DNA of 64,000 nt from Serendipita indica DSM 11827 (lineage: Eukaryota; Basidiomycota; Agaricomycetes; Sebacinales; Serendipitaceae): assembly GCA_910890315.1 (NCBI GenBank), contig CAJVGD010000042.1, positions 1-64,000 on the forward strand, read 5' to 3'. Shown here one piece after another: positions 7,032-41,990 of this stretch; positions within the stretch are counted from its first letter, which is position 1, and each line of letters begins with the position of its first letter. The translations under genes and the position numbers were made by a program. The notes beneath the pieces were generated by a model that saw only the letters and a program-made list of their open reading frames with translations, searched no databases and was not told the origin of the DNA.

Positions 7032-7269
7032 AGCATGAGTGGCTGGCTGGTGTGGCTTCGTTGCGCATGGTTGCTGGCTTGTTTGAGGATTCGAACAAAA
7101 TAACCCGCAAAGACTCTTCCATACGATGCATATGTATTACTGGCTTAGTTTTCTAGACATCTTCAGACCGCGGGTCGTGACACCGTCCCCCTGGCTAGCA
7201 TAAGCCTCCAACAGGGGCTACAGGCTAACAGATCAACCAACTAACCATCCGGAATCAAAGATATAGATC

Positions 7270-9110: not shown

Positions 9111-9188
9111 CAAGTTGGAGAGCGGAGTACTGCATCATATACAACATCATAATGAAGAATACATAAAGCCTAAATGCTACTTCTATCT

Positions 9189-9782: not shown

Positions 9783-9930
9783 TCGGGGGAAGATTTTTGC
9801 GAAGTGGTGAGGCGCTAAACAGTGGGATGATATACCATATGGGCATTGCAGCGTGTTTGATACGCAGTGAAAGGCAAATCTCGGCCATAGCCATCTGGTT
9901 GCATCCTGTGCAAATTCGCGCCTGCACCCA

Positions 9931-12369
9931 CGCTATTAAACAGTATCGGCGCTACCCGAGTTAGGCTTCATCGGTGTATTTCATTCATTATTTTAGTTCG
10001 TGCGCTTAGAGTGCATTCTCTGGCACTTCGTTGGGAACGGCGGCTCAGCCCGGGGCTCAGAGAGAGCGTGGAGCATAAACTGTTATGAAGAGGTCAATTT
10101 CACTCATGCTGGTGATACGGTGAACGGGAGATGGACCGAGAAGACCATGGCGTGTTCAGGAAGAATACCTAGAATTCCGCACGGGAGAGACAAAGCTTCT
10201 TTCTTGGGACTTTTCTCGGGAGGAATAACGAGAGAATCAGGAATGATGTGCTATGTTGTCCGATGGCCGGCCTACCTGCAACTGTATCAAAGTGATCACT
10301 CCCTACTGTCATTATTAGGAGTCTTAAATATCCGTATACAGTCTAGATGCCTAATTAGCTTCAGAACATCCCCCCAAAGGAAGAGCGATGCAATGCCGAC
10401 TGTGCACATCCGAGCCATTTCTATTTCCAAGGTAGTGGCCGACAATAGATAGGCAGGTTTGATACAATTATTGTAGCGCAATGCGCGGCTGGTGTAGTGG
10501 TCAAGTCTCACGACTAGGACCGCGCAGACGAAAGTTGCTGGGTTCAACTCCGTCTGGTGGCGGATTGTACGCTTAATGGCGCACTCCTGCCCAAACAATG
10601 CTCATTGGGCTTAGCCACTCTGAAATCTTATATACCCCAGAGTGAGCAAGCCCCGCCGGCTTTTTGCTTCAAGGAGCGCAGTTCCTTGAGTGCTTGGCCC
10701 GTTCACGCGTAGCTGCCGGCGTTGGGTAGTATGCATACGAAGAGAGAGGCAAGATAAGGAAATCAGACGCAAGATGAGCCAGAAGCTTTGGCGCTTCGAT
10801 GCATTCGGCCTCCTAAGTTGTGAAATATCGCCATTCTTGATAGTTTTATCCACTTCCACTTTATAGGGTTCAGAGAGGTCGTCAATTGTGTCCAATGGTT
10901 GTATCAAGGCTTGGCTTTGCAGCGATAACCGTTTCCGCATAGGAGCGCTCAGAACAAACCACCTCGACTGTGACATTGCCTTGAATAGTATCTTTGAGAG
11001 TCTTGGTTGTGTAGGTCTTCATCGCAGAATCTAAATATCATATGCTAAGAGTTGACACCTTCACCGCTCGAGCACACCAGGCCGGGTCGGTTTACGTCTG
11101 CTGACTACCGCAGCAACTTTGTAGGGAAATAATTCGACCGGCATTTGGTCGGAAGCGCATGCACCACACTGCGTTCTGCCTCACGGAAAGATGCCAAGGG
11201 CCCAGGGATATGCATAGACCCGCCAGCCACACCAGCCGCTACTCAAAGGAACTCGAGATATTCCGCTGGGTCTGAAAAGCGGTGAGATTGTCCCTCTGAA
11301 ACACTGAAGTATAACGGAACTGGTCTGAATGGTCGCTATAAACGGTTACCACTGGAATGCTCGTCGAAGCCACAAGTTGGCGCTAGGGAGCCACCGAATG
11401 CTCAGGGCCATCTCGGGATCATCCGGCCAGCGGTGATCGGTAGCGATACAGCTAAATGAATCTTTATGCGACCGAGTTAGGCCTCGTGTGCCCGAGCATC
11501 AGGGACTGAAGCCAGGATCCTGTCCTTGACAATCATGCCGAAAGATGAATGCAGCATCTTTGGAAACATAGACCAATTATTCAGTACTAATGGACTGTCT
11601 CAACAGACTCGAACTGCGTTCGCTCACAGATGTAGCATGGGGCAAGCCACTGCTCTGCCGTGCAGAGAAGTGCGGTCCCTGGTATTGACCGAAAACGCGT
11701 TAAATAAATCCCGTACAAGTCTTTGGGCTGAGCCATTCATGGCTGATCAGGAAGAACCCGCACGCAAGCGCACAGGTAGTATTGAGCGAGAAAACGTGAC
11801 GATAAAGCAGTGCCTTCTAGGCTCAAGTCCAAGGGAGTCATTAGCGGGACAGCCACCGAAGAGTGTCCAATTTTGGCGTGGTGCCTGGCTGGCGGGCTAC
11901 GACCAAGTTTGTCTTTCCCAGTTTCCTCCTCACGAGCCAACCAAAAATCCGAGCAAAATAGACAGACACCTGCCGTATATTACGTATAATAGAGCCTGAG
12001 CTGAATCATACAGAGTGAAAATTCTGGTTACAACCACCTTTGATCACTGCCCAATTGCGAGCAACAGAGATCCGGCGATACTTGATCCTGCACTTTTGGC
12101 AGCTGCGTCGACTCCACGTGCCCTAGCGTATCGTATTTGATAGCTGAGGAAGCTTGTCCGGCGCTGTCAAGCCTGGCCAACGGACATCTCCACCTCCCAG
12201 CACGAGACGGCCTCATGCCCCCCCTTGACAAATCGATGCGCCCGCTTAGCGAAGAAGCAGCTCTTGGGTTGCCGCCTGGCCCTGCGACTGTTCGCCGGTT
12301 TTGGAGCTGTTATGGTTTCTGAACTTCCTTTGTCCCGGCGAGATATAAAACGAAGGAAAACGAAGCGGG
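9931..12369. other. Gene-poor stretch with one tRNA-like segment
   Basis: Several open frames of 60-157 codons occur, but none has recognisable motifs or splice logic. One at 11526-11999 (+) is the longest. Apart from the tRNA-like segment near 10486 and the promoter of the next gene (a TATA-like motif near 12341), I see nothing here I can support. Confidence 0.4.
10486..10566 (+). ncRNA. tRNA-like / possible SINE head
   Basis: The segment holds an A-box-like GGTGTAGTGGTCA (about 10490-10502) and, some 36 bases on, a B-box-like GGGTTCAACTCC (about 10540-10551). This is the spacing of an internal RNA polymerase III promoter. A clean cloverleaf does not form: the T-arm pairing is poor and no T-run terminator follows. 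A degenerate tRNA gene or a tRNA-derived SINE is therefore more likely than a working tRNA. Confidence 0.35.
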
Positions 12370-13836
12370 TTGAGCATCATCAGCTCTTCCAACTCGTCCC
12401 CATTCTTCTCGAACAAATCGCCTCCCATGTCTTCATCCTCGTCGAATCCCGCCTCCATCAAGCGCGCGACAACTCCAGAGTCCCAGTCGCGTACTCTCAC
12501 CTCCGAGACGTATGTCAAGTCTAGTCTGCGCACGCTTGTTGACATTAGATAGGCCGACGACATCGCTCATGCGACAGTGGACGATTTTCTCGCCGCTGCC
12601 AATACACACCCCACAGGGGTCGTCTACCATCCAACAGGTGGCTTTCGATCCATTCGGGGAACTGGCAGCGAGCCTAGATTCCACGGTATGCATGTCGATC
12701 TCTTGTCTTCTCTGACTGATTCTCTACGCGACAGCTCCCGAAAACGTCCCATTCCCCAAGACGAGCGTCGAGCACGCTTTTATCTATCGATAGGTGCGTG
12801 CCTCCTTCAGGGTTGCACGACACTTGACCTGGATCACAGCAGCAACTTTCGATTCCGAGGGTATGGATTACCATGGACCCGCGAAACCAGCCCGGTAGGT
12901 TTGATCCATCTGTGATCTGTTCAAATGTTGATCGCCCTGACTAGGAATTAAGCCACACGCCATCACTCGACGAGATTGCTGCGTCTCTACGCGTCGATGG
13001 TGGGACATGCGATCCAAGAGACGTCTGGGTCATGCCGCGTCGCGAAGAGATTTTAGTCGATATGGGAACATTCGACACTCTCCTGCGGAGACCCATATCT
13101 TCCGCGCCGGTGAAGCGCACGCACGCGGATTTGGACCTGCCACCAAGAAAGAGAGCGAAAGTATGTCATATCCGCCATGATCTACATCATGTCTGACTAT
13201 GTGTTTAGGCCACTCGCTCTCGAGCTCAGTCCGTGGACTTGGCGAGGGCGTCGACTTCCGAGGATCCGTCACCCACGTCGGGGTCATCCAAAGCTTCTAG
13301 TGAAGCTTCCAATGAAGTCGCTGACATCGATGGTGAAGAGGCGTTGGAAGACAGCCAGGAGACAGCCCGGGGCTCAACTTCGGGAACGACGCCAACTGCA
13401 GAGGGAATTGAGGCGGCGTTGGGCGAACCAGGCGTTTTTGTGCCAGGTATGTCTCTATAAATCACGAGAATCCACGACTCACACATTAGCAGCCAGTTAT
13501 CCCGACCACGAACTTGATTCGTGGAGAGACCACCTCGCGGGTCGGCGCTCGGCAGAGGCGTTGTTCCCACATCTCAGGTCGACGGCGTCTTATGCTTTCC
13601 GCAAGACGTTGAGGAGCCCTCGGTACTGCTGTCAGGCGACAAGCCGATGGAACGGTACGGGGTGGGAGGAGATCCCGATGTGTGGTGAGAAGATGAGCTC
13701 CTCCGAGTCGTTCGTACGACATGTAAAGAGCCATCTGGGGCTCTGTCGGGAACAGACACTGGAGGAGGCTTTTACTGGTGAGCAAAAGCCATTAGAAACT
13801 GCATTGGATCTGACGGTAGCCAGCGAGGGCAAATAG
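12370..13836 (+). CDS. Uncharacterised protein with C-terminal C2H2-like finger
   Basis: Seven-exon gene: 12370-12509, 12553-12685, 12735-12793, about 12840-12894, 12945-13161, 13210-13446, 13493-13836, all GT-AG and in phase. The N-terminus is a Ser-rich low-complexity region. The centre has an acidic and Ser/Thr-rich segment after a basic patch (PPRKRAKATRSR) that looks like a nuclear localisation signal. The C-terminus contains a C..C stretch and MCGEKMSSSESFVRHVKSH, spaced like a degenerate C2H2 zinc finger. A nuclear DNA- or RNA-binding role is plausible but inferred from the basic patch and finger only. I do not recognise the full-length family. Confidence 0.6.
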
Positions 13837-14381
13837 ATGGGCGGGGGGAGCAACAAAGCAGACGGCAGCGAAAGGGAAGAAGAGCAAGCGAGTCTAGAGA
13901 GATTGATATAATCCGTAAATGCATCTTCGTTCTCCAGTAACATCCATCTAGTTGGTCATTACTCTCGCCGCTTTGTCCGATCGGCGTTGATAGCTCGTTG
14001 TATGATATTTTTGTACTTGGTTTCTTGTCCTCTGCCGGCGCCAGGTCAGCCATGGTGAAGCGGTCAGAAGTAAGCTTTGGGCAATAAACTCGTCCACCAC
14101 CTTGCTGAGTAGTATGAGCTAATCCACCAAAAAAATCAGGTATTCTCTCATATTTGAAAACCGCTCAAATGGCGAATACCATTGTCCGAGGAAGCGAGAA
14201 CTTCAGACCATTGGCTATAACAGCGTTCGGGAGATAACTATAAAGGTGCAATATGCCGTATATCAAGGCGTAGTTTGACGTTGTTATCGTAAGGATTCAG
14301 TGAGTCCAGGTTTGTGGTACACAAACTTGGAGTCTTCCTTGTCGGCGTAGCTACTCGAGCGTGCGAACCGGGATACGTTGA
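13837..14381. other. Intergenic
   Basis: Tandem intergenic region between the zinc-finger-like gene and the WD40 gene. Presumably 3' UTR then promoter; no feature I can support. Confidence 0.4.
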
Positions 14382-16462
14382 ATGCCGCAAGACCTTCCGG
14401 GATTCTACTTTGATGTAACAAGAAACCGTTACTTTCCCCTCAACTCCCGTCCAGCAACTGGCACATCCGATTCTGTCAGCGATCAAAATCAAGCCGCAGC
14501 GCTATCCTCGAGCGCAGCTAGCACTTCTACGCAAACAAAAAATATCATTAAGGCATCTTCCCACCCAGGTTCTGCCAGACCGGTACGAACCAGCACCAAG
14601 GGCGAATGTACGGCTGCGGCACGGCGGCGCCTGGCCGGGAAACTGAGCCTTTCTGATATCCATGATGACCTATAGTAGGTAAATTTTCTACGTAAAGGCC
14701 ACTTTTGAACTAGAAGTAGCTCCTTGCAACATTCCAACCTGGCTCATCGAGCTCGGTTTGTATCATCAACGCATGCACCATTCGATCATTACGGAGTGGA
14801 TCTGACGAGTATATTCGTCTCAGACTTATCGCGAATACCCAAAGATATGGCAATGGAAGAGGACACGACGCATGACCAACCTAGGTCGAGACCTGGTTTA
14901 ATCTTTGCAGGAGACAAAGCTGGAATGCTCTATGCTACCTCGAAGGAAGATCCGTATGATCCTTGGGTGCCTGTTCATCACCTGGGCTCCCAGGTAAGCA
15001 CCCCCCGTACCCTATCATCGTCGTCTAAACCCTGTGCTAGATTTCGAGTGTGTATATTCATAACAAAACTATGTAGTAAGCTCCTTCAAACGGTGTCGTG
15101 TTCTCAAGGCTCACGTAAAGTGCCGTAGCGCGGCTTCGCTAGGTCCGAAGCCGCAAATCTTCATATCTACCAGCGAGTGAGTTGAACGGGAAATTAAGTA
15201 GAGAGATATGACACTTTTGATAGATTCATGTCTAGCCTTAGCATGCATTCCTTTCACGACATGTGGACGGTACACTGGCTGATGCCGTCACCTGAAAGCG
15301 ATGCATCCAATGCAAGTGCTGTTATTGGTGTGTTCGACCATTTGCAATTCAGATACTGTACTGACAGCCAGGTCCAGGGATGAAACAACGCGCAGTGTAT
15401 ATGCCTTCCCTCGAAACGCACCGTGGTGCATATATCATGCCCACAAATTCCGACGTGTTCTCTGTCTATAAGCACCATGTAAGCCTCTATTACCACCTTT
15501 CGACGTTTTCTAACCGGTTCGCCTGCCAGTGGACTGTCCTTACTGGTGCTCGTAATGGATCTGTAAAACTCTTCGATGTGAGAACACCTCCCACATCTCA
15601 CGTGAATATATTTCCGCCATGCGTTCGTGCATCTCGCACACTGGGCGTACCCGTTGCGGATCCCATACCACGCCGTGGGCTCAACCTAGCACCTACAAGT
15701 CGTGGAACAGCAGGGAGTAGATGGAATGCCCTCTCTAAATCACCAACTAGACGTCCATTGGCACTAGGAAACCCCGCACATGACGATCGATCTGCGGGAG
15801 GAACCACACTTGAGGAGGCCAAACCAATGCATACGAGCTCAGTGACAAATCTTCGCGTCCTAGATGAATGGGGACTTCTTCTAGCGTCGATGGACGGGAC
15901 GGTATGGACCTTGAGATTGCTCGAACGTTGCTGACCATAGATCAGCTTAATGCCTATGATATGCGATTCTGTGGCTTCGCATCTCGTTCACAAGCTGAAA
16001 TGGGGACGTTTGTCATTCGGTCAACGAAAGCGAAGCTCGGAGAAGTGGCGACGCTGCCACGACCCGTCTTCAATTTAGCTGGTCACGTCAACACTTGTAG
16101 CCAAGGACTGGTTGGTCCCGCCGTCGTTGTCTCATTCTCTGTTGACTCTTTTCCAGGGCTTCTGTGTGAACCCGTCTGCCTCGATCCTGCTCGCCGCCGG
16201 AGAGGATAAGCGGATCCGGGCCTGGTCCTTGCGCACCGGCGATAATGTTACCAATACGTCTACTTCGAATTCGCCTGGGCCTTCTGGAAAAGCTACTCCC
16301 AACCTGTCATCTTCGCCACGTAGTACCCCTCAAGCTGGCCTCCTGTCTCGCACCTTCTCAAGGCCGGTCAATTCTATTGTGATGGCTGAAGATGGAAAGG
16401 AAATCTGGGTCGCGAGTGGGCGTGAAGCTCTTTGTTTCGAGGGTACTCTCTCGTTTAGATGA
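14382..16462 (+). CDS. DCAF4-like WD40 protein (CUL4-DDB1 substrate receptor type)
   Basis: Nine exons: 14382-14674, 14717-14993, 15041-15072, 15129-15176, 15236-15327, 15372-15478, 15530-15901, 15946-16110, 16157-16462. The N-terminus LPGFYFDVTRNRYFPL is the hallmark start of DCAF4/WDR21 proteins. WD-repeat remnants follow: FAGDKAGMLYA, WTVLTGARNGSVKLFDVRTP, LLLASMDGTLNAYDMR, GHVNT, and LLAAGEDKRIRAWSLR. In animals the family docks on DDB1 in CUL4 ubiquitin ligases; that role is carried over by family. Some introns use less usual sites (an acceptor ending CCGTAG at 15128, a donor GTTGGT at 16111), but phases agree throughout. Spacer inserts between blades are long and Ser/Pro-rich. Confidence 0.75.
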
Positions 16463-16567
16463 GGTAAAGTCATATCTGGACTTTCGACCTCATCTCATCC
16501 TTTACAGTCTTCCTTCCGCTTGTACTTCTTCAAATTCATGTTACTTTGATGCATCTCGAATACGACA

Positions 16568-17379
16568 CTAAGCATCAATCCCTTTGATTCCTCCCTTGGC
16601 TTTCTGCCAAGACTCTCGCGACGACAGCTCCTTCCACCAACGAGCGACGTGCGGGTATTTCTCTTCGTTCGTCAAGTAGTCGTATCCCAACTTGATGAGG
16701 ATTTCGCCGTAGGGCAAAAAGAAGAAGTCGGCATAGGTCAGCTCCTGTCGAAAACGGTGAGTTATTTTGCTTCCCTAATGCAGCGTGCGACGTACATTTC
16801 CCCCAATGTACTTTTGTTTACTAAGGATAGCCTCGAATCCATCCATCCTTCCCGCAAGGGTTGTCTCCCACTTTTCAACAAACTTTGGTTCGGCTTCTGC
16901 GCCCCATGACCTGCAACTATTGTCAGTATTGCATTTTATTGGAAGAACAAGGAGCTACTGTTTGAAGATGCGTTCCAAGGCTAAGCCTTCAGCCCCGGGG
17001 TTAAAGTTGTTGTTTTCGATGCTGACGCCCTGTTCGACGAGCGCCATTGTTTGAGCGTCGATTGCTCGAAGGCAGGAGTGGGGTGCCAGAGGAGGCATAC
17101 TTCGTTGCAATATACTTTCCAATTGCGCGGGATTCAAACAAGATAAATCCGTCATCCTGGTACGTTTACTGTTAGTATTCACCAAATAGACACAATTTTT
17201 CTTACATCAAGATAGGGAACCTGTCCGAATGGCTGGTTCTTCGTCCACGCTGGAGACTTGTGCTCGTGCTTAGACCAGTCCATCTCAACCATGGTGAAAG
17301 GCACGTTCTTCTCGTATAAGATTACAGCAGCGCGCTGCGTGCAAGTTGATATGCTGCTTCCGTGAAGTGTAAGTACCAT
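16568..17379 (-). pseudogene. Glutathione S-transferase, frameshifted copy
   Basis: Same four-exon layout as the intact GST at 30927-31738: start at 17379, first exon to 17206, then DDGFILFESRAIGKYIATKY, the IENNNFNPGAEGL helix, KQKYIGG, and a last exon beginning ELTYADFFFLPYG and ending at 16568. Between the LLPS segment and the .AQTMALVEQG segment (about 17058-17070) there is one extra base compared with the paralogue, which shifts the frame in the middle of exon 2. As read, the protein stops early. Otherwise all splice sites and catalytic-region residues (HGSSISTCTQR) are intact, so it is either a very young pseudogene or a one-base sequence error. The promoter retains TATAAAA (17438-17444). 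Confidence 0.75.
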
Positions 17380-27000: not shown

Positions 27001-27720
27001 CTACGTCGGTATAATGATCGACAGATGCGGCCGTGCAGTATTAGGTCTCTGAGTGGCTGCCCCAGGGCTTCTGCTAACACGAGGTGCCTGTTGTGGGCGT
27101 CCGCCACCGTGGGAGTCGAAGACGTGGGACAATCGCTGTCCTGACGATCGCTCCTCCTCCGGGCGTGAGTACGACTCGGACGCAATGCGCGAGCGCGCAA
27201 AAGGTGATAAATCCAATCCACGAAATCGCATACGACTATTGGAATCGCCCCACCCGTCCATGTCGGAGGTTGGGCGGCGGTGCTCAAACGGCGGTGGAGA
27301 TGCTGTCCTTTGCCAGGCGAGTCGGCCAGATGAGACCGTCGGCAGGTCAGAGTTTGAAATGTTTCCTCCATTTTCCAGGGTTTGGAATCGTGCTCGGGGT
27401 GGCGATGGAATGTGAGCTTCGGGTTTACGAGTTGGAAAGACAAGGGGAACCGAAGAATTGCGCCAGCGTTCGACACGTTGGATATGAGGTGGTATTTCTC
27501 CCTGTTGGGTGGATTGTGAGGTGCCGGGAGACTCTAAGAGGTCTAGTTTGGTCAACCGTCCTGGCTGTCCCCTCCTGAGACTCTCGGATGAACTCCTCCG
27601 GCCAAGGGCTGACGGAGCACTCTTTGGTGTAGACGACGAGACGCCCTTTAGCATTTTCACAAGGCTCTTCCACGACCTACTCGTCCGCCGTTCGTTCACT
27701 TGCGCTTCTGTAGGTCGCAT
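27001..27720 (-). CDS. KLSL-tail family protein (member C)
   Basis: Intronless ORF of 239 residues, basic and Ser/Pro/Arg-rich, with no known domain. Near the N-terminus SRSWKSLVKMLKG could form a short amphipathic helix. LTKLDLLESPG (residues 56-66) matches the TKLDLLASPIG motif of the members at 9189 and 34534. The protein ends RPHLSIIIPT, a weaker version of their KLSLVIPA tail. The space between is rich in Pro and Ser and probably disordered. It sits head-to-tail with another member (28777-29562), with which it shares TKLD and the terminal tail but little else. Membership rests on motif position at both ends. Confidence 0.55.
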   Translation of the reverse strand: MRPTEAQVNERRTSRSWKSLVKMLKGVSSSTPKSAPSALGRRSSSESLRRGQPGRLTKLDLLESPGTSQSTQQGEIPPHIQRVERWRNSSVPLVFPTRKPEAHIPSPPRARFQTLENGGNISNSDLPTVSSGRLAWQRTASPPPFEHRRPTSDMDGWGDSNSRMRFRGLDLSPFARSRIASESYSRPEEERSSGQRLSHVFDSHGGGRPQQAPRVSRSPGAATQRPNTARPHLSIIIPT

Positions 27721-28776
27721 TGCTGTGAGGGCTCAAGGGGAGGAAGCACGTCATGAATCCTCCTGGGTGGCATATATAGCGCGCCCTTCCATCGGCGATC
27801 AAGCCTTTGCGCGTGAACAGAATCGGTGCATGCCACTCATCGCCTCAGCCCGTTAGCCAGCTTCGCCATATGCTGTCTCCCAGCCGATGCCAGCCGCCCG
27901 CATTGAGTATTACTTCTAGGATCCTTGTCAAATACGTAGTCGCGACTTGAAATATCTCCGTCCTTCCCGTCCCTTCTGTTTTACACTGCTTGACCAAACG
28001 AGGCTAGACATCGCTATATCGAGCGCGCGAACGACGTTCTCCGCGACCTGTAATTGAAATGCTGTGCAAAGGGGTCGACTGTTGACATTGCACTGGGACA
28101 GGCCATGACACGCGAGGACGGTTCGATGAGCGCTCCGATTTATTGGAAACCTCGTATAGCAGCCTCCTCCGTTTGACTGGTTTGTTCAATTACTGTAGAG
28201 TTTCAGTTTCAGGGCGTTATTCATACAGTGATGCTTCTTTGCTGGAGTAGCCCCGACCCGTCCTCTTCGCTCAAGGAGAACCCCGGTGGCTAGATGTATC
28301 CAAATGCACTTCTATATACTCTGGTTATTGTTTCAGCGATTTTTGTGCCCATACATGTACGAATTGCTGAATAAGATGGGCAGAGGCGACCGGAAATAAC
28401 ACATAATACGCCTGCAGGGCAGTATACATGTGGAAAGCGTGTTGTAAACGCAAATTACTACGTCCTCATTGGATATAAAGAATTCTTGTCCTCGTTTGGG
28501 GGATCTTGTCTGACCTGGAAGTGACGAGTGTGCCAGTCATCTCCAGATAATTAAAGTGGGTGCGTTATAGATTCCGAACGAGGTACGATCCAGCCATTTG
28601 GAAATTAATGACGAAGGGTGTCGGCTCCAAAGGTTTATGCTCGTAGTGGCATTACTGATTAGCGGAACCTCTGCAATTTCAGATGGAGTATATATGTCGT
28701 CTGCTACATAAATCTCTTGAACACCAGGTAGTTCTACTCGCAAGACCCCCCTGTTTCGCCAAAGTAGAACAATCCT
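27721..28776. other. Spacer between two KLSL-tail ORFs
   Basis: About 1 kb without an ORF I can support. A TATA-like GGCATATATA motif near 27769-27778, about 50 bases upstream of the 27720 start, could drive that ORF. Confidence 0.4.
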
Positions 28777-29562
28777 TCAATCAGGTATTGAAAGAGAAAG
28801 TTTCGGTTTTGGAAGTCTTCGTACTTTTGGTTCAGGTTCCACGGGCATTGGCTGCTCAGCATAGCGGGGGAAAGGCACCGGCGACCATGGAGGGAGGGGC
28901 ACCGTTGGGAACACCGGCGAGTCGCGGCGCGCCGAAACACCTGGCTCTCTCCGCAGAACTACACGTGGTTGATCATCAACCGTGCCTGGCTTCGCTCCCT
29001 CTTTCGGAGGACGGTAGGCCCGAGGGAATGACAGAGACCTCTGTCTGTGATGGATTTCTTTCTTCTTATCACGCGAAGGCAATGCTAGGCGTGGTCCTTT
29101 TGGCGGGGTCGGCCGCACAGACGTGTCGATAATAATCTTCTTTGGTGTGGGCTTTGTGGGCTTTGGACGAGGAGGCGGAGGAAGGGAGACATTAGATTGC
29201 GTCGTGCCATATTCCAATGCATCATGGAGATAGAAGTGCCGGTATTCTGCTTGCTTTCTGCTCCAGTATGCTGGATCCCACTGATCCCCTTCGCGCACGC
29301 GTATAGGCGGCATTGTTGCTTCTGTAGACGGATTAGATGGAGGTATGGATGGATCTAATATGTCTAGTTTCGTTAGCTCGGCTGGTCGTGAGATTGCGCG
29401 CAAGCGAGGTTTTTCTGCTGAGGATCGGCCTGCTTTTCCCTGGGAGGGAGGGTCTGACTCTCCTTGTGAGGAGTCTAGGCTCTTGGTAAAGGTAGTGAGT
29501 TGCTGTCTCCAGCCGAGAGTTTTGTCTTGTGTCAGGTTTTCAGGAATTTGAGACGCGGACAT
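28777..29562 (-). CDS. KLSL-tail family protein (member D)
   Basis: Intronless ORF of 261 residues. Motifs in order are a WRQQLTTFTKSL helix near residue 18, ELTKLDILDPS (residues 62-72), a WDPAYWSRKQAEYRHFYLHD aromatic block, repeated Pro-rich PPPPRPKPTKPTPKK, and the C-terminus VRRLPKPKLSLSIPD ending exactly at the stop. The tail is nearly identical in pattern to RKLPRPKLSLVIPA of the copy A and B members. Basic residues, then Pro, then LxL resemble a MAP-kinase D-site. No signal peptide or membrane segment is visible. Function unknown. Confidence 0.6.
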   Translation of the reverse strand: MSASQIPENLTQDKTLGWRQQLTTFTKSLDSSQGESDPPSQGKAGRSSAEKPRLRAISRPAELTKLDILDPSIPPSNPSTEATMPPIRVREGDQWDPAYWSRKQAEYRHFYLHDALEYGTTQSNVSLPPPPRPKPTKPTPKKIIIDTSVRPTPPKGPRLALPSRDKKKEIHHRQRSLSFPRAYRPPKEGAKPGTVDDQPRVVLRREPGVSARRDSPVFPTVPLPPWSPVPFPRYAEQPMPVEPEPKVRRLPKPKLSLSIPD

Positions 29563-30926: not shown

Positions 30927-31738
30927 ATGGTTTTGAAGCTCCACGGAAGCAGCCTTGCGACATGCACTCGTCGTGTCGCGGTTATCCTGCACGAGAAACA
31001 GGTTCCCTATGAATTAATCGAAGTAAACTGGGCTGTTGGAGAGCACAAGTCCGCGGCATGGAAGCAATATCAGCCATTCGGTCAAATTCCCTACCTCGAT
31101 GTAAGTACCTTCTAATACCCAACGGGACGCATGCTGATATTCGAGCAAACCAGGATGATGGATTCATCTTGTTTGAATCTCGTGCCATCGCCAAGTACAT
31201 CGCGACCAAATACGCGTCGTCCGGCACTCCGCTCCTCCCTTCCAAAAACGACTTGCAGACGCTAGCGCTCATTGATCAAGGCGCAAGCATTGAGAATAAC
31301 AACTTCAACCCGAGCGCAGAGGGTTTGACCTGGGAACTCATGTTCAAGAAGTAATGCTTTTATCATTTCCATAAGCCATGCTCATTGAAATCTCTAGACT
31401 GAAGGGCGAGGAAACTGACCCCAAGGCTGTTGAGAATTTCGAAAATACGCTGCAGGCAAAGATGGAGGGCTTCGAAGCCGTTCTCAGCAGGCAGAAGTAT
31501 ATCGGCGGTAATGTGCGTGGGAGCATCACTGCAAGTCATTGGTTACTGACAATCTTCATAGGAGTTGACCTATGTCGACTTCCTCTTTTGCCCTTATGGA
31601 GAGGCCATCACCGCGTTGGGTTACGACTACTTGACGAATGAAACCAAATATCCTCATGTGGCTCACTGGTGGAAGGAAATCTCATCGCGAGATTCTTGGC
31701 AGGCAGTGAAGGATGGTGCGAAGGGGTTACCTGCTTGA
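30927..31738 (+). CDS. Glutathione S-transferase (phi-like)
   Basis: Cytosolic detoxification enzyme that conjugates glutathione to electrophiles. Exons: 30927-31100, 31154-31350, 31398-31512, 31562-31738, giving about 220 residues, normal for the class. The thioredoxin-fold half has HGSSLATCTRRVAVIL, whose Ser/Thr next to TRR is the usual activating position in phi-type GSTs. It continues with QPFGQIPYLDDDGFILFES (cis-Pro and the glutathione-contacting E-S). The helical half has IENNNFNP, KQ or RQKYIGG, and a terminal WWKEISSRDSW. The phi assignment is by eye. Its promoter has a doubled CCAAT and palindrome module and a TATA box, which suggests inducible strong expression. A frameshifted paralogue lies at 16568-17379 in opposite orientation. 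Confidence 0.88.
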
Positions 31739-31879
31739 GAAAGTCGATTGTCCAAATCGTCCATTGTATTCAATAAGAGCAATAGGTTGTCTGGAAACCA
31801 TTAACAGGTGCCGGGTTATGGAATGTGAACCATACCTGATCAAACTAGTCTAAACATGGACTAAGATGTCAAGCGTGAC

Positions 31880-33479
31880 TCAGAACGGCGGAAGAGGTGG
31901 TAATGGCTTCTTTTCTTTCCATGGAGTTAGGTCCGCCGTCTTGTACGTCGGATCTGGCGTTTGCGGAGACGCGAGTGCCCGCGGTGCGAACTTGTCGGCG
32001 CCATTCTCAAAGGATCGCATAGTGAAGCGGGATAACTCCCCAACAGGCTGAACGTCCTCTGGAATGGCGGAGAGCGGGACTGAGATGATGGTACTGAGTG
32101 GTGCTCTGCTCTTTCCGTCATGACTTTCGTGCATTGTCGCGCCATCAGATGAGAATCTCGTTTTAGATTCAGACTCATTGTGAGTCGCCATCGTTGTCAC
32201 GGGGAGAGTCTCTGGGTTGCGGGCAGCGACCTGGCGCAAGTGAAGGAAGAGACGCGACACCATCAAAGAACTCAGTGAGTACTCAGTCCAAGACGCCATA
32301 TACCAGAGAGATGGACCCATGTAGGCGACCTATCGACTGTTAAAAACAAGGACCCGCGGCTGACCTCCACGTACAATGAATCCAGCTGATAGCCTAAGCG
32401 CTACAACGACAAGAAAATATAGCGACCCATCGAAGTATATTGTCCGCAGAAGATGGGGAAGACTAGCTGCAGCTCGAGTCTGAGTAGTCGCCGTCGCGGC
32501 CTGAGGCCGTAAGAGGTGCTGATGGCGAATGAGATGATTAATTTGAAGCGCAACGAGGAGAAATTCAAATGGAATCTATAATCTAGATCAGATTCCATCT
32601 CCGCTGGTATGCAGCGTACGCGTACGAGAGAAAAGTAAACGCCCGCAAAGTACTTTACGTCGTCAAAACTGCATATCTTGAGAATCTTCGAGTAAAAAAC
32701 AGCATCTATAATTGTTCAGCGTCATGATATGCACGGATTTAGAGGACACACCCCAGTTGGGAACGAGGCCGCTAACGACGAACACCAAAGCAGAGGTGTG
32801 CGAGAGGACAAATGCAGCGTAAAGTATGCACTGCAGTATTACTTGCCCTTGGTACAGTGCAACGACACGCAGCAAGAGTAGCCATGAAGCTGCAAGATAT
32901 GAAATGGTCTCCCCAATTGGTTGGCTCAGCACAGCTGTATGACAGCTAATCGAGAGTAAGTGCGTCGTATAGGAGTGATAGATTTCGAACGAACAACTAT
33001 TGGGATGTGAGCGAGATCAATTAGAAACAGAATCACGTACTAAGAGAGACTGAGGAGCGTGAAAGGGCGATACATCTAAGCAATAAGTTAAACCTCGTTG
33101 TTTTCACAGCTTATTACTCACGAAAGACGCCCAAGAGAAGAACGGGCATAGGCACATAGCGGTTCTAAGATGTCTTCAGTGAGGCTCTTCCAATTCTGAA
33201 CGACCGACCACGTAGAAAAGAACGGTAGGAAGAGAAAGTTTAGCGCTCCAGACATGTTCAATTTCTGACATCTTGGTGAGCTAGCATGACTACGGTCGTT
33301 ATGAACATACCGCCTGGCAGCGTGAGGAGATAGTCATAAAGGAGCAAAACTCCCGATGCCGCAGTGAAATAGGTGGAAATTCGAAGGTTATATGCAATTT
33401 GTAGTAAATCTGCGATAGTGAACGTCTTTTCGAGCATGGACGTCGCTGCCCAGGCAGACCCTCCATCAAACGCCACCAT
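31880..33479 (-). CDS. DUF6533 multi-pass membrane protein
   Basis: Multi-exon minus-strand gene with several hydrophobic helices. The N-terminal part reads ...LRISTYFTAASGVLLLYDYL, then LTLPGG, then (spliced) IEHVWSAKLSLPTVLFYVV and NRYVPMPVLLLGVF. This is the signature of the basidiomycete DUF6533 family (LL.YDYLLTL..E...W..K.S...LF..NRY). Further helices follow: ASWLLLLRVVALYQGQVIL and LYAAFVLSHTSALVFVVSGL.. The last exon has WYMASWTEYSLSSLMVSRLF and a polar Ser/Thr/Pro-rich cytoplasmic tail ending PLPPLPPF. Exon borders between about 32320 and 33240 are only approximate. The function of the family is unknown. Confidence 0.75.
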
Positions 33480-34479
33480 AGTGTCTTCTCTTGACGGAAC
33501 ACTACCAATTTAATGGATATTGGAAGGTCAAACTTCCATCCAAAAGGGTGATGGAGGTGAGGAAAAGTCAGAAAGGGGACGGGAGGAGACCAGCTGAGGA
33601 GTTGCGACGGCTCGAGTTGCCTAATATCATGTGGGTCCTCGGAGCGACTAGACCAATTGGGCGATGTTGTATATGTGAGAGCCAAGGCATCCAGGGCTTC
33701 TTGTATTGTCGCCAAAACTGAAGCCCGTCCCCGCCCTTTGGTCGTGAAGAACCACAAATTGAAATGTAAGGGAAGGCACCAAGCCAGCTATAATGAGGTT
33801 GAATCAGCTATGAATAAACGAGGTGATCATATACATACCTCGAGGGTTCAACTTGGCTTGCTAGCCTTGGACGCTACCGAAGACGGCGTTGGTTGCCATC
33901 AACGGGAGTGGCAGCAAGCTGTCGCTGGGTATCCGAGAAACCCTCGAGGCTCGCTGAATCCCAAGAAGGCGATCTTTCATTATGCCACCGAGACACGTTG
34001 GCGCTCTTGTCCCGTTGCTCGAGTTGGTTTGACCCTCGTGCGTTTAGCTGAGTTCCAGACATTGCAAAAGCGTTTAAAAGGTTCCAAAAAAAAAACTAAT
34101 ACAGTCATATGACGGAAACAACCCGTACGCTTTGTCGACGGGTGTGAGGCCAAGTTGCCCCTACGATTGACCCTGGCGGCATCCTTGAATCGCTCCAGCC
34201 CAACGCCGTAGAATGAAGCTCGAAATGTACCATAACGTCTCTCAACATAGAAGAGCTCTACAGCAAAACTATCCTTCCAGGTCTCGCGTTCAGCGCACCG
34301 CACGGAGATTATCAAGGCGCAGAACCATAAATATGAGACAGATAGGCCTCTAGTCTATCAACGGTGATGCTGTTTAGAGGCGTGGGTATGGGCGCGATGT
34401 TGCACTGGATCCAAGCAGACGGCTATAGCCAAAAGGACTAGCTTTCGCCGCACGTTATGCCCATTCATCTCCCCAAAAG
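33480..34479. other. Gene-poor stretch
   Basis: No supported gene. Open frames on both strands lack motifs. A run of nine A lies near 34087. Confidence 0.4.
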
Positions 34480-34533
34480 CTATAATAACCGCCGTTTGAT
34501 TGACAGCTATCGCTTCACAAGCACCCTCCTCCG

Positions 34534-35226
34534 ATGGCTCTCCAACTCCTCTCTGATGCCTCTCAGTACTCTTATCGTGGAAATACTCGCAAAAGCAGCA
34601 CATGGAAGAGCTCCTTGTCATTTCTTGGGCAGAAGACTGCCTCCCCAAGTCAGAAAACTTTCTTCATCCGCAGCGAGGGGTCGTCAACAGAGAAACGCAG
34701 TGGGGGGACCAAAGACGTTTTGACACCCGGGAGGACACAAACTAAGCTGGACCTCCTTGCATCTCCCATCGGCTCTCCTAGAGACCGATCAACCGGTTCG
34801 GCCATGGCACGCCGTGGTCGGTGCACGTCGACGAGTCAGACCAAAGATACGCGTGCGAACTATGGCACTGTACAGCGAGACTATTTCCCAGTTATCTCGC
34901 GTCACCTCCGATCCAACAGACTTTCACCAGTCATGCCAACGGCGCGTGGTGTCTCTGGCCACGACAAACCACGCCGCAAGGCAATCAATATGTCGGATAC
35001 TCTTTATGGAAACATGCCAAGCGTTGGGCTGTCGCGGCAGCCAACGCCCGCAGTGACCTCGACTGCAAAGTCCACCGTCCGGAGGATACCTCCGCCAATA
35101 GATCCAACAATTATCCCACCAGAGCCATCTCTGTTCCATATAAATTGTGGCTTACCAGTGACTCCTGGTCGAATAGCCACACGTAAACTGCCGCGACCAA
35201 AGCTCTCATTGGTTATTCCCGCCTGA
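34534..35226 (+). CDS. KLSL-tail family protein (copy B member)
   Basis: Intronless ORF of 230 residues, preceded by a TATA-like element (about 34478-34486). Motifs in order are RKSSTWKSSLSFLGQK, FIRSEGSS, TKLDLLASPIGSP (residues 70-82), a Ser/Thr/Arg-rich middle, then PPIDPTIIPPEPSLFHINC, GLPVTPGR and the tail RKLPRPKLSLVIPA ending at the stop. The closest relative is the copy A member at 9189-9782, with more distant members at 27001 and 28777. It is convergent with trpD (88 bp between stops), and the same pairing is preserved in copy A. Low-complexity composition suggests disorder apart from the end motifs. Function unknown. Confidence 0.65.
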   Translation: MALQLLSDASQYSYRGNTRKSSTWKSSLSFLGQKTASPSQKTFFIRSEGSSTEKRSGGTKDVLTPGRTQTKLDLLASPIGSPRDRSTGSAMARRGRCTSTSQTKDTRANYGTVQRDYFPVISRHLRSNRLSPVMPTARGVSGHDKPRRKAINMSDTLYGNMPSVGLSRQPTPAVTSTAKSTVRRIPPPIDPTIIPPEPSLFHINCGLPVTPGRIATRKLPRPKLSLVIPA

Positions 35227-35314
35227 AGATGATTCGGTCCCTATGTATTTTTATTTATTATCTTGTATATGACGCAGTACTTCGTTCTTCAAACCCTTGA
35301 TGTTATTTGTTACG

Positions 35315-36534
35315 CTATGAGCTGTTATCCCAATCCCTAAATGAACAGAATGCATCCCAAGCGTTTCCGGATACCACGCTCTCTCTCGCCAATCGCACAC
35401 CTTCCTCCAGACTGTTTGCGACGTCCGCGACTAGGAGAACGGCAGCAGCGTTCATCAGCACAAACTCCAGGACAGGGGTGACATCCTCCGAAGGACCCTT
35501 TCTTGCTCCCCACTTCTCCGGGTTGATTAGATGCATAAACGTCTCGGCATTCTCCTCTGGTCCCTTGCCGCCTTTGACCATGTCCAGCGAATGTGCTCGC
35601 AGTCCAAACGAGCTTGGCTCGATGGAAAACTCCGCAAACTCTCCATCTGAACGACCGCGCATGTACTCCCATACATGAGTCGGTCCTGCACACGAAATCT
35701 CGTCTAAACCTTCTTCCCCACAGACCACCCATGCTCGTTGGACCTTTTCGTCGCAGCTGAGTGCCTTGATGAACGTCGGTCCAAGCGAAGCGTGTGCGAC
35801 GCCAATCACAATCGCAGCTGGACGTGAGGGGTTGACGAGTGGTCCAAGGAGGTTGAGGATGGTTCTATGAGGAAGAGTGCGACGAATAGGAGCTAATGGT
35901 GCTAGAAGAGGGTGATGGTGGGGGGCGAGAAGGAAGCGGAATTTGGGATCTGGTACCGATCGAGGTGAAGATATGTGTGGCGAAAGCGGACACCCGAGAG
36001 TGATCAAGAGGTCTGCTGCTCCAGAAGAAGACGTCGAAGCGCGGTTCCCGTGCTGCTCATCATCAAACCGTGGTGAGAAGTAAGTACACAAATGCTCACT
36101 TTATAAACCCTCGCACCGGCTCCAGCTGCGATGACGGCTGCAGTCGTGCTGACATTAAAGGTATTGTGTCCATCTCCACCGGTGCCAACGATATCGACGA
36201 CCATCCTTGGTTTCGAGTTCGTCTCCTCCTCGGGAACGTCGACTACGATGGCATATCGGCGTAGAACTTCTGCACCGCCAGCCAAGATGTCGACATCGCC
36301 CTCTCGACCACTAAGATGTAGCGCAGTCAAGAAGCTACCAATCTGACTCGGAAGGGTACTCGACGGATCGAGGAGATGCTCGAATGCTAGGATCGTATCT
36401 TCTCGTGTAAAGCTCTTTGGCGACGAAATGAGCTTTCCGAGCACCTTTTTGAAGGTCTCGGGTGTGAGGTGCGGTTGAGTGGCTTGGTGTATCGACGTCG
36501 GGACATCGGAAGGTTGAAGAGGTGATTTATCCAT
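35315..36534 (-). CDS. TRP4: Anthranilate phosphoribosyltransferase
   Basis: Second step of tryptophan synthesis: anthranilate plus PRPP gives phosphoribosyl-anthranilate. Two exons on minus, 36534-36100 and 36052-35315, joined by a 47-bp intron, give 390 residues, slightly longer than bacterial TrpD. Signatures: VDIVGTGGDGHNTFNVSTTA (the PRPP/Mg-binding glycine loop), then across the splice VYKHGNRASTSSSGAADLL, then NLLGPLVNPSRP and the acidic DE pair in EEGLDEIS. The C-terminus contains LEFVLMNAAAVLLVAD. Only this copy is intact; a gutted relic lies at 8723-9110. It converges with the KLSL-tail ORF. Confidence 0.93.
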
Positions 36535-36897
36535 TTTCTACGTCTCACTTAAATGCCTTGCTTTCAAAAAGGATTGCGGACTCGAGTGGCGATTGCAAGG
36601 AGCAATCGTGGCAGGGTTCAAGAAGCAAGTCGGGCACAATTAGTACCTCTTCAAACGTGTCTCCAGTTTGCTGCTCTTCGCTAGGTCCTCGCATAAAGCT
36701 CGCTGATGTGCCTTGTATACGACCGCCTTTGGATATCAGTCACTGTTCTAGTTGTTATCATTCCTCACAGATATCGAAGATTTTCTAGTCATTATCTATT
36801 GAAAGCTGCGACGGCACGTGAGGTCGTGAGTAATGGCGGAGTTTAAATACTTCTGACCCGACGAGCCGCCAACCTGCCACAAAAGAAATCTGAAAAA

Positions 36898-37326
36898 ATG
36901 GGAGCTGCATACGAATACTGTCCTAGACATTTAAACGTCTCTTTATCGTCGTCAAACTCCAGGGAATCATCACCTAGCGCCGGGTCCAGTGGCTCGTCCC
37001 ATGGCCAGTCACCTTCTCCCTCTGTATCCTCAGACGCGTCATGTTCATCACCTCCTTCAATTGTGTCAACCATATCCGAGACGATGCACGCGTTCGGTCA
37101 TGCTTCGACTTCGTTTGGCGTTACGACGCGGAGCCGTAGCGCGTGCGGACGCTGTCTCCCATGCAAGAAAGGAACGCGTCCGCCAGCGATCTGGTCTTTT
37201 CATTCGCGAAAGGATCCAGAGGTCTCGTGCTCGACCTTACGATGCACCTCCACCGCGCCGGGAAACTCGTCGGCTCAAACCAGTCGTAGACCTCCCAGTT
37301 ATTCCACCAACTATTCTCGACATTGA
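36898..37326 (+). CDS. Ser-rich open frame, doubtful
   Basis: 142 codons, opening with MGAAYEYC and then Ser/Pro-rich sequence, ending in a Cys-containing ACGRCLPCKKG stretch. The Cys spacing is not that of a known Zn cluster. The reverse strand is also open and acidic, so coding on either strand is uncertain. It could be the first exon of a gene reaching the ORF at 38041. Confidence 0.25.
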   Translation: MGAAYEYCPRHLNVSLSSSNSRESSPSAGSSGSSHGQSPSPSVSSDASCSSPPSIVSTISETMHAFGHASTSFGVTTRSRSACGRCLPCKKGTRPPAIWSFHSRKDPEVSCSTLRCTSTAPGNSSAQTSRRPPSYSTNYSRH

Positions 37327-38040
37327 TCAAATTTGAGCAGCTTCTCATCCCATTATCTTGTTGCTAACGGGTCAAGTTTCCTGGAAAGATCGGTTGGCGA
37401 ACATGCGATGGATATGACGACCAAGTTTGGCAAGACCTTACCCAACTGATTTCCCAGTATGCAGGATCATGTAACCTTCGATGACTTACCCTATTTCAGG
37501 CAAGCAATGCGACCTCGGGCACTAGCACACAATATTCAGTCCCACATATTGGACTTCGAGGGGGCCATATACAACGACCCAGACCTCTTCATCCCATCTC
37601 ATTGACAGGTACATATATCCTCACGATAGCAGCAATATCGCTGATCCGACTTACAGCTGCTTCGAGACTGCCCACTGAGTAGTGGCGGGTATCTAAAAAT
37701 ACCCGAGCAATTCGTAGATGATGGCGACTACCAAGCCAAAGTTCACTGTCGACCGAGCGCAATGACAGACCAGATCCACCGAAGCCAATGGGCGTTTGCT
37801 CATGCAATGCAACTCGACCTCACACACATACACTGGAAAGTTTGCAGCACGAATGGCTTCAATGTGGATTCCTGCTGCTTCGAGGCTCAGGAGTAGCATC
37901 AAGAGACGCAACTCGGGCCAAACAAGGATAGTTGGATGCAGTCCTCGATAACTCACTTCAACGACCTCAGTCCTCGGCGGAAGGAGAGATACCGCGAGGA
38001 TTGGACACATCGTAGCTCAGGGAGTGAGATTGCAAACATC

Positions 38041-38657
38041 ATGTCTCAGGAGATGATTCCCGTGAAATGGTAAGAAGGAGCCCTCTATCTGAAACGGGCT
38101 AATGTCAACTTGTCAGGCACCAGCCACTGCTTCCGGGCCTTGAATCTACCTCGCCGACTGTGGAGCTATCCACACGTCCTCCACCACTTTCATCGCATTG
38201 GGACAATGCAACTTCCCCGCTCCTATTCGCAGCGCAACCGTATTTGGAGGATGACGCTGAGAGCCGATCTCGAGCGATTTCTATTCTCTCTGCGGCGTTT
38301 CATCCGATGATCAACATCTTTGTCCACTGTCACCTTGCAACTCGGCAGTCTCAGACCAAGGAACTCCCACCGTGGATGGTCCTATTCGGCGTGATATACG
38401 ACAAGTATATGGTCGAAATAATTGCCTTCTACCCAACTTGGGACGGTAGCTGGCAGCCTCGAGCATTGACCTCGGGTGACTTGCGAATGACTCTCTGGAA
38501 GGATTCCCCGCGGGGTCAGTTACCTCTGGTGATGTGTCTGCGCAAGATTCAAAACCATTACACGTCAGTGATGCGTCATCTACAGTCGTGGCCCGGCTAC
38601 GATGCTGCTGCGCGCAAATGCTCAAATCTCCTACCCATTCCTTCGGATTTAGCATAG
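38041..38657 (+). CDS. Hypothetical protein, two exons
   Basis: Exon 38041-38069 (MSQEMIPVKW) joins through a 47-bp GT-AG intron to 38117-38657. It encodes a mixed hydrophobic/charged protein with FHPMINIFVHCHL, PPWMVLFGVIYDKYMVEII, FYPTWDGSW and MCLRKIQNHY. The pattern looks like a globular alpha/beta fold of the sort found in lineage-specific basidiomycete hypothetical proteins, but I do not recognise the family. It lies inside the 3.65-kb insert. Further upstream exons are possible. Confidence 0.5.
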
Positions 38658-38765
38658 TAATTGTACATGTATTGACATAGTGTTTTGAGCATAGATCTAC
38701 ATACGTATCCAAGTCTGTATATTTGTAATTGAACAGTTTCCCTTGCTACCTCCGACACCGCCAAT

Positions 38766-39987
38766 CTAATCCGAGAACAGGTGTGGATAATTCTCATCAA
38801 AGAACTTCACATCCCCTGCTTCGAGAAAGCCCAGAGCGATAAACTTGTGGGCCAGCGACGTCCCAGAAATGCCGATATGATCAAGCAAGAGGTGAAACTG
38901 GCGCTCCAGAAATCTCGAATGGCTCTCCATACGAGAGAACCAAGGAAGAACTTGGACACGCAGTTCGTCCGTGTCCCTAGAGGCGAGCTTAGGGTCCCAT
39001 ATCTTTCTTGTAGCAGTCACTGAATTGGGTAACCACGCACGTCCAACGTTTCTCCGAATGGATGTACTTTGGATGAAATGAATAAAAAGTCAACCCGAGG
39101 GGAGTCTGGATGAAGCCAGTGATGAACATCCATGGCAAAACGGGGTGTTCCGGATCGTTGAATATCGTGAGGTGAAGAATTAGCCATATTATGGCCGGGA
39201 ATGCTGCTAGTGCAAGTTGGGCTACACCTTCATCCTCAGCAGAGTTGCTCTTCCTAGACCCGCTTTCACCAGATTTCTTTCCGGCAGACTTGTTCTCCCC
39301 GACCACCAGTGGAGGAGCAGCGCGCCCCATTCGAGCGATGAGTGTCTTGGATCGAGCCAGGAAATCTGGTTTGGGAATCGTATCGAAGAGGAGCATCACC
39401 CTTGGATGCGTCATATTCAGGTTCCTGCTCACGGTCAGCCGTCGTGGTTAACTGGGCGTATGACTCCGGATTACTCACGATGTGACCTCCATTTGACTCG
39501 TGCGGAAAATCGTACAGACACCATGAGCATTCTGCTGCTCAACGGTCATCTCCGACCTCAGCTCCTCTGGATGGTGGGGGTGCAATCGCGTTGGGCGTAT
39601 CCAAGCAAGAACGAGGTCCCATCCAGACATTGCGCCTTCTCGCTTCGAGAATAGGTTCCCGAGTCTGTGCTTGTCATCCTCTGCTTCAATCTCTTTGAGC
39701 AGTTTACATTCAACGTTGTAGACCCAATTCTTGGACCCTTGCACGGGAATCGTATTCTGGAATTGCCACAGGGTGTTAAGGCGGACCCACCTCTCATAGC
39801 ACAGTCGAAGTTGCTCTTCTACTTTGCGTACTTTGTCCATGGCTTGTTCATGTGGCTCATCGGGACCGCTTAGCATTAAAGAATCTCCTATGAGCTTGCG
39901 GTGATGGTCGAGCATCGGACGCTTGATGTTGGACTCAGTGCTCGGTCCCTGGGCAGGCTTCTTCTCCGGTGACGGGGAGCAGCTCAA
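38766..39987 (-). CDS. Hypothetical membrane-associated protein
   Basis: First exon from 39987 encodes a Lys/Glu-rich, probably helical region (MDKVRKVEEQLRLCYERWVR, WDLVLAWIRP). A GT-AG intron (about 39430-39485) leads to a second exon. It has a long Ser/Lys linker and two hydrophobic helices (VAQLALAAFPAIIWLILHL and PWMFITGFIQTPLGLTFYSF). Beyond KRWTCVVTQF the model is ambiguous. An intron of about 40 bp gives a second hydrophobic tail; a different join gives a soluble tail ending NYPHLFSD at 38766. Not recognised. It lies inside the 3.65-kb insert. Confidence 0.45.
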
Positions 39988-40468
39988 TGCTTTCCCTTTG
40001 GATGGTGAAAGCTGAAATCGGAGGTAGTCATCCCTCTTCCTGACCTCGTAATATACTTACGGGAGGGTTGAAAGAGCTAATGCATCATCGACGGCTTGTT
40101 GATCGACTCTAAACTGTTGGGTTTCAGCATTGCTTCTCGTGCAAAAAAATTGATCTCGCCTCCTGATCTGAAGGAATTGCCACGGTGAGACCGCGGTCGA
40201 GCATGAGGTTGTTTAGATACCATAGGTATCTCACAAGGACAGAGTTGGACCCCATGCTAGATACACCACGAGATTCGACCGCAATAGTGCTTGGCGAAGA
40301 GGAGAATGACAAGTCTGTATGGGCATTTTCAGGTAGCTTCGCCATACCCCTCTCCCGCTCAGTGGCCATACAAACCGTGAATTTCCAGACGCCCATCCCT
40401 TCTAATGGCAATGTTTTCATACTCCTATGGGCTGATCAATCTAGGTAATGTCAGAATTAGATTTGGGC

Positions 40469-41700
40469 TCACGATGCATTGTGATACTCTGGACGACCCG
40501 AGTTCGCGTGTGGGTCGGTTACTCTGGGGCCTCTTTCCTTTCGCAAATCCGCAATTCCCCCGGCCTCGTTTTTATCTTTTGGTATTGCGAGCCAGTCGAC
40601 TGGAAGCCGAAGCCTGGTACACTCCTTCGCAAGAGATGTCTCATCCAGAGCCAGCATCGTTGAGGCAATCTCGAGGCGCTTGACCTTATTCGGCTTGTTT
40701 ACCTTTCTAAACTTTGGCTTTCGCCCTGGCTCTGCTTTGCTGGCTTGTAACTCTGGGCCGTGGTCCTTCGCAGGGGATTCACCGTCGGTCTGCCGAGCAG
40801 TTAGCGTGGTATAGCTAAGTATCCGATGCTTTAACCTTCCCATCGGATGCCTTTTCAGAATCTACTACAGTCAGGATAGATATCGAGACAAACTAACGAA
40901 CAAGTTAGTGATTGAGTACGGGCTGGCGTCAATGCTCACTGGAGGGTTGTGGCAGCTATCAGTTAGTGGCTGGTCTTCCCCGTGAGATTCTCCGCTTTTG
41001 GCTTTCTTGTCTTCCTCTTCTTCTCTCTCCTTAGGCTTCTTCGTTGAAGGATCAATCTCCCCAGCCTGCAGGTAGTACAAAGGCGTATCGTCAGCAAAAT
41101 ATTGAACCACGCGAGAGGCATAGAGTCCTCTGTAACGAGCAAGTAGATGAAAGAGATGAAGACAACTAGGACGAGTAGGACGACACTCGCTCACTGGATG
41201 CACATTGTCTCTGCCATCGCCGCCAGAAGACTCTTCTCCAGCTGGGAGAACATTGGATACATCTAGAAGTGACTTATTATCCACGGAAACTGTTTCCTGT
41301 AAAGCAAAAGCGACGTTAACACGGCTCGGCTGGAAAAGGTGTGGCGACGTCGGTGGCATTAAAGAGTCATGGCGGCCCATCTCATGGAATTCACAAGTGC
41401 TTACTGTGGAAGTGGAGGATTTACTAGCTCGTGGAGGACTACCAGGAGGGGAATGTCTCTCGGAGACCACAGCCCCGACCTTGGTCCTAACTCGCTTCTT
41501 GGAGGGACGATTCTCGTCCTCAGCGACGCCTGTTTTCATAATTAGGCCACTTAGTGCGTTCCAGATGTCAGAGCAAGTTGGCGTGGTAATCAAGGTTTGC
41601 AAAACAGTCTGCCAGCCCACTTTTGCAAACTGTCGTTTATAGGCAAACTTCCCACGGAGGCATAAACAGGACCTATATCTTTGATTCCGGATAGTTATTT
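40469..41700 (-). CDS. Unknown Lys/Glu-rich protein (copy B)
   Basis: Multi-exon minus-strand gene, with start not visible (probably in a short exon upstream of 41640). Segments in order: TLITTPTCSDIWNALSGLI, PSKKRVRTKVGAVVSERHS, a GT-AG intron, VDNKSLLDVSNVLPAGEES, YYLQAGEIDPSTKKPKE, an acidic-basic run, LTDSCHNPPVSIDASPYS, and finally RKFRKVNKPNKVKRLEIAST, MLALDETSLAKECTRL and PKDKNEAG. The last part looks like a short helical domain. I know no family. The C-terminal residues after RVTDP differ from copy A because the insert begins there. Copy A is broken; this one appears open. Confidence 0.45.
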
Positions 41701-41990
41701 GGTTTATCTGTTAGCTTGTAGCCCCTATTGGAGGCTTATGCTAGCCAGGGGGCGGTGTCACGACCCGCGGTCTGAAGATGGTCAAGAAAACTAAGCCAGT
41801 AATGCATATACATCGTATGGAAGAGTCTTTGCAGGTGATTTTGTTCGAATCCTCAAACAAGCCAGCAACCATGCGCAACGAAGCCACACCAGCCAGCGAC
41901 TCAACGTAGCCGACCAAAAGGAGAGCGGTCGTGAAAAATGACTTTTTACATGCAGATATAATGTATCTTGACTGTCAAAACAATATGAAC

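Follow-up and report, generated by a model that had tools for sequence, protein, structure and literature searches.

Gene families without annotation are common in fungi. For the family described here, the closest comparisons are with the docking motifs of MAP kinases and of calcineurin. As given in PMC4670726, the loose MAP-kinase docking motif (D-motif) consists of one or two basic residues followed by x(0-5), phi, x(1,2), phi, x, phi, in which phi is a hydrophobic residue. For calcineurin, the definitions set out in PMC5156906 are P-x-x-x-[IV]-[TDH] for the PxIxIT class and [NQDESRTH]-[YTDFILV]-L-x-[VPL]-[PK] for the LxVP class, and the same source places the two docking sites of the phosphatase about 30 Å apart.

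The window is the whole stretch of DNA that was analysed, 64,000 nucleotides from Serendipita indica DSM 11827 (contig CAJVGD010000042.1), and it contains eukaryotic genes, some with introns. From the sequence alone, a first-pass annotation had proposed an unnamed intronless family with four members, a central (T/S)KLD(L/I)L motif and a fixed C-terminal tail. The open reading frames (ORFs), the KLD motif and the tail are real, and all four frames have exactly the coordinates and lengths that were claimed. The motifs below were located by a six-frame pattern search and the tails by a pattern that includes the stop codon.

9189..9782, minus strand: member A, ORF of 197 aa, a duplicate of member D
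27001..27720, minus strand: member B, ORF of 239 aa
28777..29562, minus strand: member C, ORF of 261 aa, in tandem with B
34534..35226, plus strand: member D, ORF of 230 aa, adjoining a trpD-like gene
9558..9575, minus strand: motif of A, SKLDLL, residues 70-75
27535..27552, minus strand: motif of B, TKLDLL, residues 57-62
29356..29373, minus strand: motif of C, TKLDIL, residues 64-69
34741..34758, plus strand: motif of D, TKLDLL, residues 70-75
9192..9221, minus strand: tail of A, RPKLSLVIPA
27004..27033, minus strand: tail of B, RPHLSIIIPT, the weakest of the four
28780..28809, minus strand: tail of C, KPKLSLSIPD
35194-35223, plus strand: tail of D, RPKLSLVIPA
35080..35223, plus strand: last 48 codons of D, dN/dS 0.06 in comparison with A

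The central motif thus begins at residue 70, 57, 64 and 70 in A, B, C and D, respectively, and is followed directly by SP in three of the four (A, B and D). In every member the stop codon comes exactly one residue after the IP of the tail. The longer consensus first put forward, (R/K)xLP(R/K)PKLSLxIP, is found in three members; what all four share is [RK]PxLS[LI]xIPx. The members had also been described as otherwise dissimilar, which is correct for B and C, joined to the rest by the motifs alone, but not for A and D, which are 55% identical in alignment (blastp 47% over 232 aa, E 4e-52). Each member is a single exon as read from its open reading frame; the neighbouring glutathione S-transferase (GST) gene has four exons by eye.

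The likeness of A and D is explained by an inverted segmental duplication, in which these two frames lie in opposite arms. It includes A/D, the GST gene in two copies, the trpD-like gene, and an open frame without a name, here called X (7.0-8.4 kb and 40.5-41.9 kb), two stretches of which had no Pfam match. The arms and the recognizable genes of the window are as follows; the joint presence of Vts1 and a Pkc1-like HR1/C2 protein indicates a fungus, and gene content and intron style suggest a basidiomycete.

6618..17379, no strand assigned: left arm of the inverted duplication (limits within which the matching blocks lie), carrying A
30927..41951, no strand assigned: right arm (limits within which the matching blocks lie), carrying D
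22837-23685: Nop-domain protein
24569-26269: Vts1/SAM protein
30927 to about 31738 by reading: GST (Pfam match on the first exon)
36004-36534: trpD-like gene (Pfam match on this interval; the frame continues to about 35.32 kb)
57792-58784: HR1+C2 (Pkc1-like) protein

Since A and D are segmental duplicates, the four frames represent at most three independent lineages, and four independent members are ruled out. The arms may be of mosaic age, with an old duplication overlaid by a more recent exchange (gene conversion) or second copying, because X and 284 bp beside trpD are 92-97% identical between the arms (dS 0.19 in 117 codons), whereas most other blocks, in A/D, GST and trpD, are 64-78% identical (one 50-bp piece, 84%). 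The GST pair differs at 100.5 of 128 synonymous sites, with dN 0.18 over 198 codons; these sites are saturated, and the pair therefore yields no dS and is unusable as a clock. The left-arm copies of GST and trpD look decayed. The GST copy (16570-17379) has a one-base frame shift inside its second coding exon, which could be a sequencing error. The trpD copy (8769-9045) is reduced to short pieces of its two ends, the last of which contains a stop, and the roughly 860 bases that separate the two matched blocks of the right-arm gene are represented by only about 60 in the left arm. Unlike these two neighbours, the frame of A is still open.

Two further features belong to the right side of the locus. 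A stretch of 3.66 kb (36852-40511) is present in the right arm only and contains open frames of up to 193 aa; two of these were scanned and gave no Pfam match at E<=0.01, and the first and last 15 bases of the stretch do not match as terminal repeats. At 30637-30814, two head-to-tail copies of an 89-bp sequence, 94% identical, precede the GST start by about 110 bp and are possibly a doubled promoter element.

Selection on the proteins was estimated from the A/D pair by the method of Nei and Gojobori over 197 aligned codons, with 1000 bootstraps from which replicates with saturated dS were dropped (964 to 1000 kept). The estimates come from one pairwise comparison with dS near saturation, and B and C lie outside the test. 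Over the whole alignment dN is 0.352 and dS 1.031, a ratio of 0.34 (bootstrap 0.22-0.49). A ratio near 1 had been named in the first-pass annotation as evidence against the family, and it is not what these duplicates display. The ratio is unevenly distributed: omega is 0.41 (0.18-0.78) in the N-terminal part through the KLD motif, 0.54 (0.28-0.91) in the middle part and 0.06 (95% bootstrap 0.02-0.15) in the last 48 codons. Among the last 40 aligned residues 36 are identical, with 16 silent codon changes, as compared with 73 identical among the other 157. The sequence FHINCGLPVTPxRIATRK, which precedes the tail (35080-35223 in D, 9192-9335 in A), is alike in the pair save for one residue and is absent from B and C. 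In the tail itself, a comparison of D, B and C shows three different codons each for the invariant L and S, two and three for the two P, and two for the I. Purifying selection together with silent codon changes therefore indicates conservation at the level of the protein and argues against chance frames; with ratios of 0.34 overall and 0.06 at the end, these are real genes in which the C-terminus is strongly conserved.

The tail is common to the four members to a degree greater than chance allows. In all six frames of the 64 kb window, [TS]KLD[LIVM][LIVM] and [RK]Px[LIV]S[LIV]x[IVL]Px-stop match A to D only, and the tail-stop pattern had no match in 100 mononucleotide shuffles of the window. 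A looser tail pattern gave two extra matches, at 17152-17175 (minus strand) and 18047-18070 (plus strand), which appear unrelated. In a three-way test with D, B and C, from which A was omitted as the duplicate of D, the anchored last 10 residues scored 94 against a shuffled mean of -23, and none of 100,000 shuffles scored as high. The best free 9-residue block in these three proteins is the tail (0/300 shuffles). The best free 6-residue block is TKLDLL, whose score was reached in 2 of 300 shuffles, and the significance of the KLD block on its own is moderate. A third common motif, W[KR]xxL near the N-terminus, seen by eye and in the four-way alignment, was discarded when 102 of 500 shuffles reached its score.

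The proteins are strongly basic (pI 10.2-11.7), and S, P, T, R and K make up 43-50% of their residues. They are predicted to be mostly disordered, and their products are most likely cytosolic or nuclear, to judge from the lack of an obvious signal peptide by eye. None of the four matched Pfam at E<=10. Against the PDB, D had no match at E<=1 and the four-sequence profile none at E<=10. Among the papers searched, PMC10949477 included, none deals with the family or contains any of the six tail and KLD strings looked for.

The simplest role for a motif fixed at the very end of a disordered chain is that of a docking peptide, as the first-pass annotation had suggested, and its suggestion is supported by the omega of 0.06 at the C-terminus versus 0.41 and 0.54 elsewhere, by the silent codon changes and by the predicted disorder. 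On balance we lean, though by no means firmly, towards a fungal family of disordered proteins in which the tail is a docking peptide; that it binds a partner we infer. The genes A to D would then belong to a fast-evolving family expanded by local duplication, in which the constant part, [RK]P-x-L-S-[LI]-x-I-P-x-COOH, would serve for docking. The tail would occupy, in extended strand form, a groove on a folded and conserved partner, and a KLDLL-type motif at residues 57-75 would provide a second contact, with a variable spacer from there to the tail. It counts against this reading that the putative kinship of B and C with A and D is based on 6 to 10 similarly placed residues. Should the tail prove to be a docking peptide, the C-terminal pattern and the second short motif would give a search key for a fungal family that is otherwise unalignable, and the tail itself would lead straight to the hub that it serves. 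The nearly fixed C-terminus beside a drifting body is a clean case of selection on a short piece of a protein predicted to be disordered. Without a partner, A to D amount to an ordinary family of unknown function, though a well-supported one.

The leading single candidate for the partner is a MAP kinase, with the tail in its docking groove, a proposal drawn from pattern matches that we regard as tentative. The loose D-motif in the form given in PMC4670726 fits all four tails, with or without Pro allowed in the first phi place; shuffled copies of A to D contain a mean of 3.2-4.7 such motifs per protein (overlaps counted, Pro allowed). The MEF2A-type pattern also fits all four tails, and the chance of a match starting in the last 15 residues is 1.8-3.6% per protein. 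Because the tails probably share descent, their four fits should be counted nearer to a single event than to four separate ones. The tail may be a MAP-kinase D-site, as the first-pass annotation proposed; two stricter classes do not fit, the NFAT4-type pattern matching none of the four tails and the JIP1-type pattern none of the four proteins. S/TP sites number 3 in A, 7 in D, 6 in B and 4 in C, which is not above shuffles (P 0.71, 0.28, 0.50 and 0.96, respectively), and A to D contain no DEF site (FxFP). As a proposed second D-site, KLDLL fits the loose pattern in B and C but not in A and D. A broader conjecture, to which we attach a low probability, is that these are locally expanded, disposable disordered proteins with a common kinase- or phosphatase-docking end, and that they compete for a single signalling hub or tether it; their bodies would drift and copies would come and go while the handle stayed fixed.

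It is unlikely that the C-terminus is instead part of a small fold, or a strand in a homotypic assembly, and not a peptide for another protein. The conservation of about 40 residues in A/D, beyond a short motif, speaks for such a structure, as does the climb of pLDDT towards the C-terminus in the models of D and C; the wider conserved block is, however, absent from B and C. In AlphaFold models no fold is seen there in either protein, a weak test with alignments of four sequences for D and one for C. The model of D has a mean pLDDT of 48.6 and no secondary structure, and the only ten-residue block above 70 is the last (73). The model of C, with a mean of 54.7, has helices at 11-30 and 97-117 only, and its blocks above 70 are 101-110 (74) and 251-260 (71, in the tail). 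Tail values of 71-73, in the absence of secondary structure, carry little weight as evidence in either direction.

Distinctly improbable, in our judgement, is a family limited to A and D, with B and C as unrelated disordered proteins whose ends are alike by chance. In its favour, all-against-all blastp (E<=1e-3) linked neither B nor C to any other member, the stretches of D, B and C before the KLD motif or between the motifs gave no three-way alignment above shuffles, and the tail of B is the weakest. On the other side stand the anchored tail of D, B and C, the second motif at similar positions, and the location of B and C, which adjoin each other and both lie within 8 kb of D. As a control for the picking of ORFs, the last 10 residues of all 3,828 pairs among 88 ATG ORFs of at least 100 aa were compared; the pairs among A to D took ranks 1-5, and the sixth (B-C) tied at 26 with an unrelated pair.

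Docking of the tail on calcineurin, with PxLSLx as a PxIxIT-like strand overlapping LxIP as an LxVP-like motif, is highly unlikely. The invariant P, the alternating hydrophobic residues and the terminal IP do resemble a fusion of the two motifs; the tail of C agrees with a loose form of PxIxIT, and three of the four tails agree with L-x-[VIL]-P. With the stricter definitions given in PMC5156906, P-x-x-x-[IV]-[TDH] matches no tail, its matches being one elsewhere in A and one in D, and the pi-phi-LxVP pattern matches none of the four proteins. Given the distance between the two calcineurin sites in that source, one 8-mer cannot fill both. Other C-terminal or IP-containing signals were set aside: no tail matches the EB1-type SxIP, and a PDZ ligand, PTS1 or prenylation signal was dismissed, since the final position is variable (A, A, T, D) and neither an SKL nor a CaaX end is present.

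The codon usage of A to D is weakly gene-like. The full codon score was best in the true frame in all four, but the synonymous-only score was not, and synonymous usage is unlike that of the training frames; the training set was small (8 open frames picked by eye) and scored on itself, which makes the test weak. Viral contigs were scanned with the alignment, B, C and D, and prokaryotic genome contigs with D only; both gave pattern matches and no relative. That A to D are young or spurious frames near the end of their life and without function is very improbable, for although the weak codon signal, the broken look of GST and trpD beside A and the lack of homologues in the collections searched (Pfam, PDB, viral and prokaryotic) favour it, the collections scanned for DNA relatives were viral and prokaryotic, so that missing homologues say little, the A/D ratios of 0.34 and 0.06 were reached at dS of about 1, and the window has 13 ORFs of at least 230 aa and 19 of at least 190 aa versus totals of 1 and 4 in 20 shuffles.

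Like the unannotated gene families of mushroom-forming fungi, A to D are without known domains; Snowball differs in that it carries DUF6533, which is found in membrane proteins, while A to D have no Pfam match at the threshold used here. The calcineurin motifs PxIxIT and LxVP share with the tails a Pro followed by alternating hydrophobic residues and a hydrophobic-Pro end, but the patterns published in PMC5156906 are unmet at all four tails. MAP-kinase D-motifs of the MEF2A class and of the Far1/Ste7 type share with them one or more basic residues, a short linker, a hydrophobic-x-hydrophobic-x-hydrophobic core and a disordered setting, the likeness to Far1/Ste7 being at the level of the pattern class. 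In contrast, the exact C-terminal place, the invariant Ser and the terminal Ile-Pro are features of the tails only, and the constraint in A/D, which takes in FHINCGLPVTP, spans about 40 residues and so exceeds the length required for a D-site.
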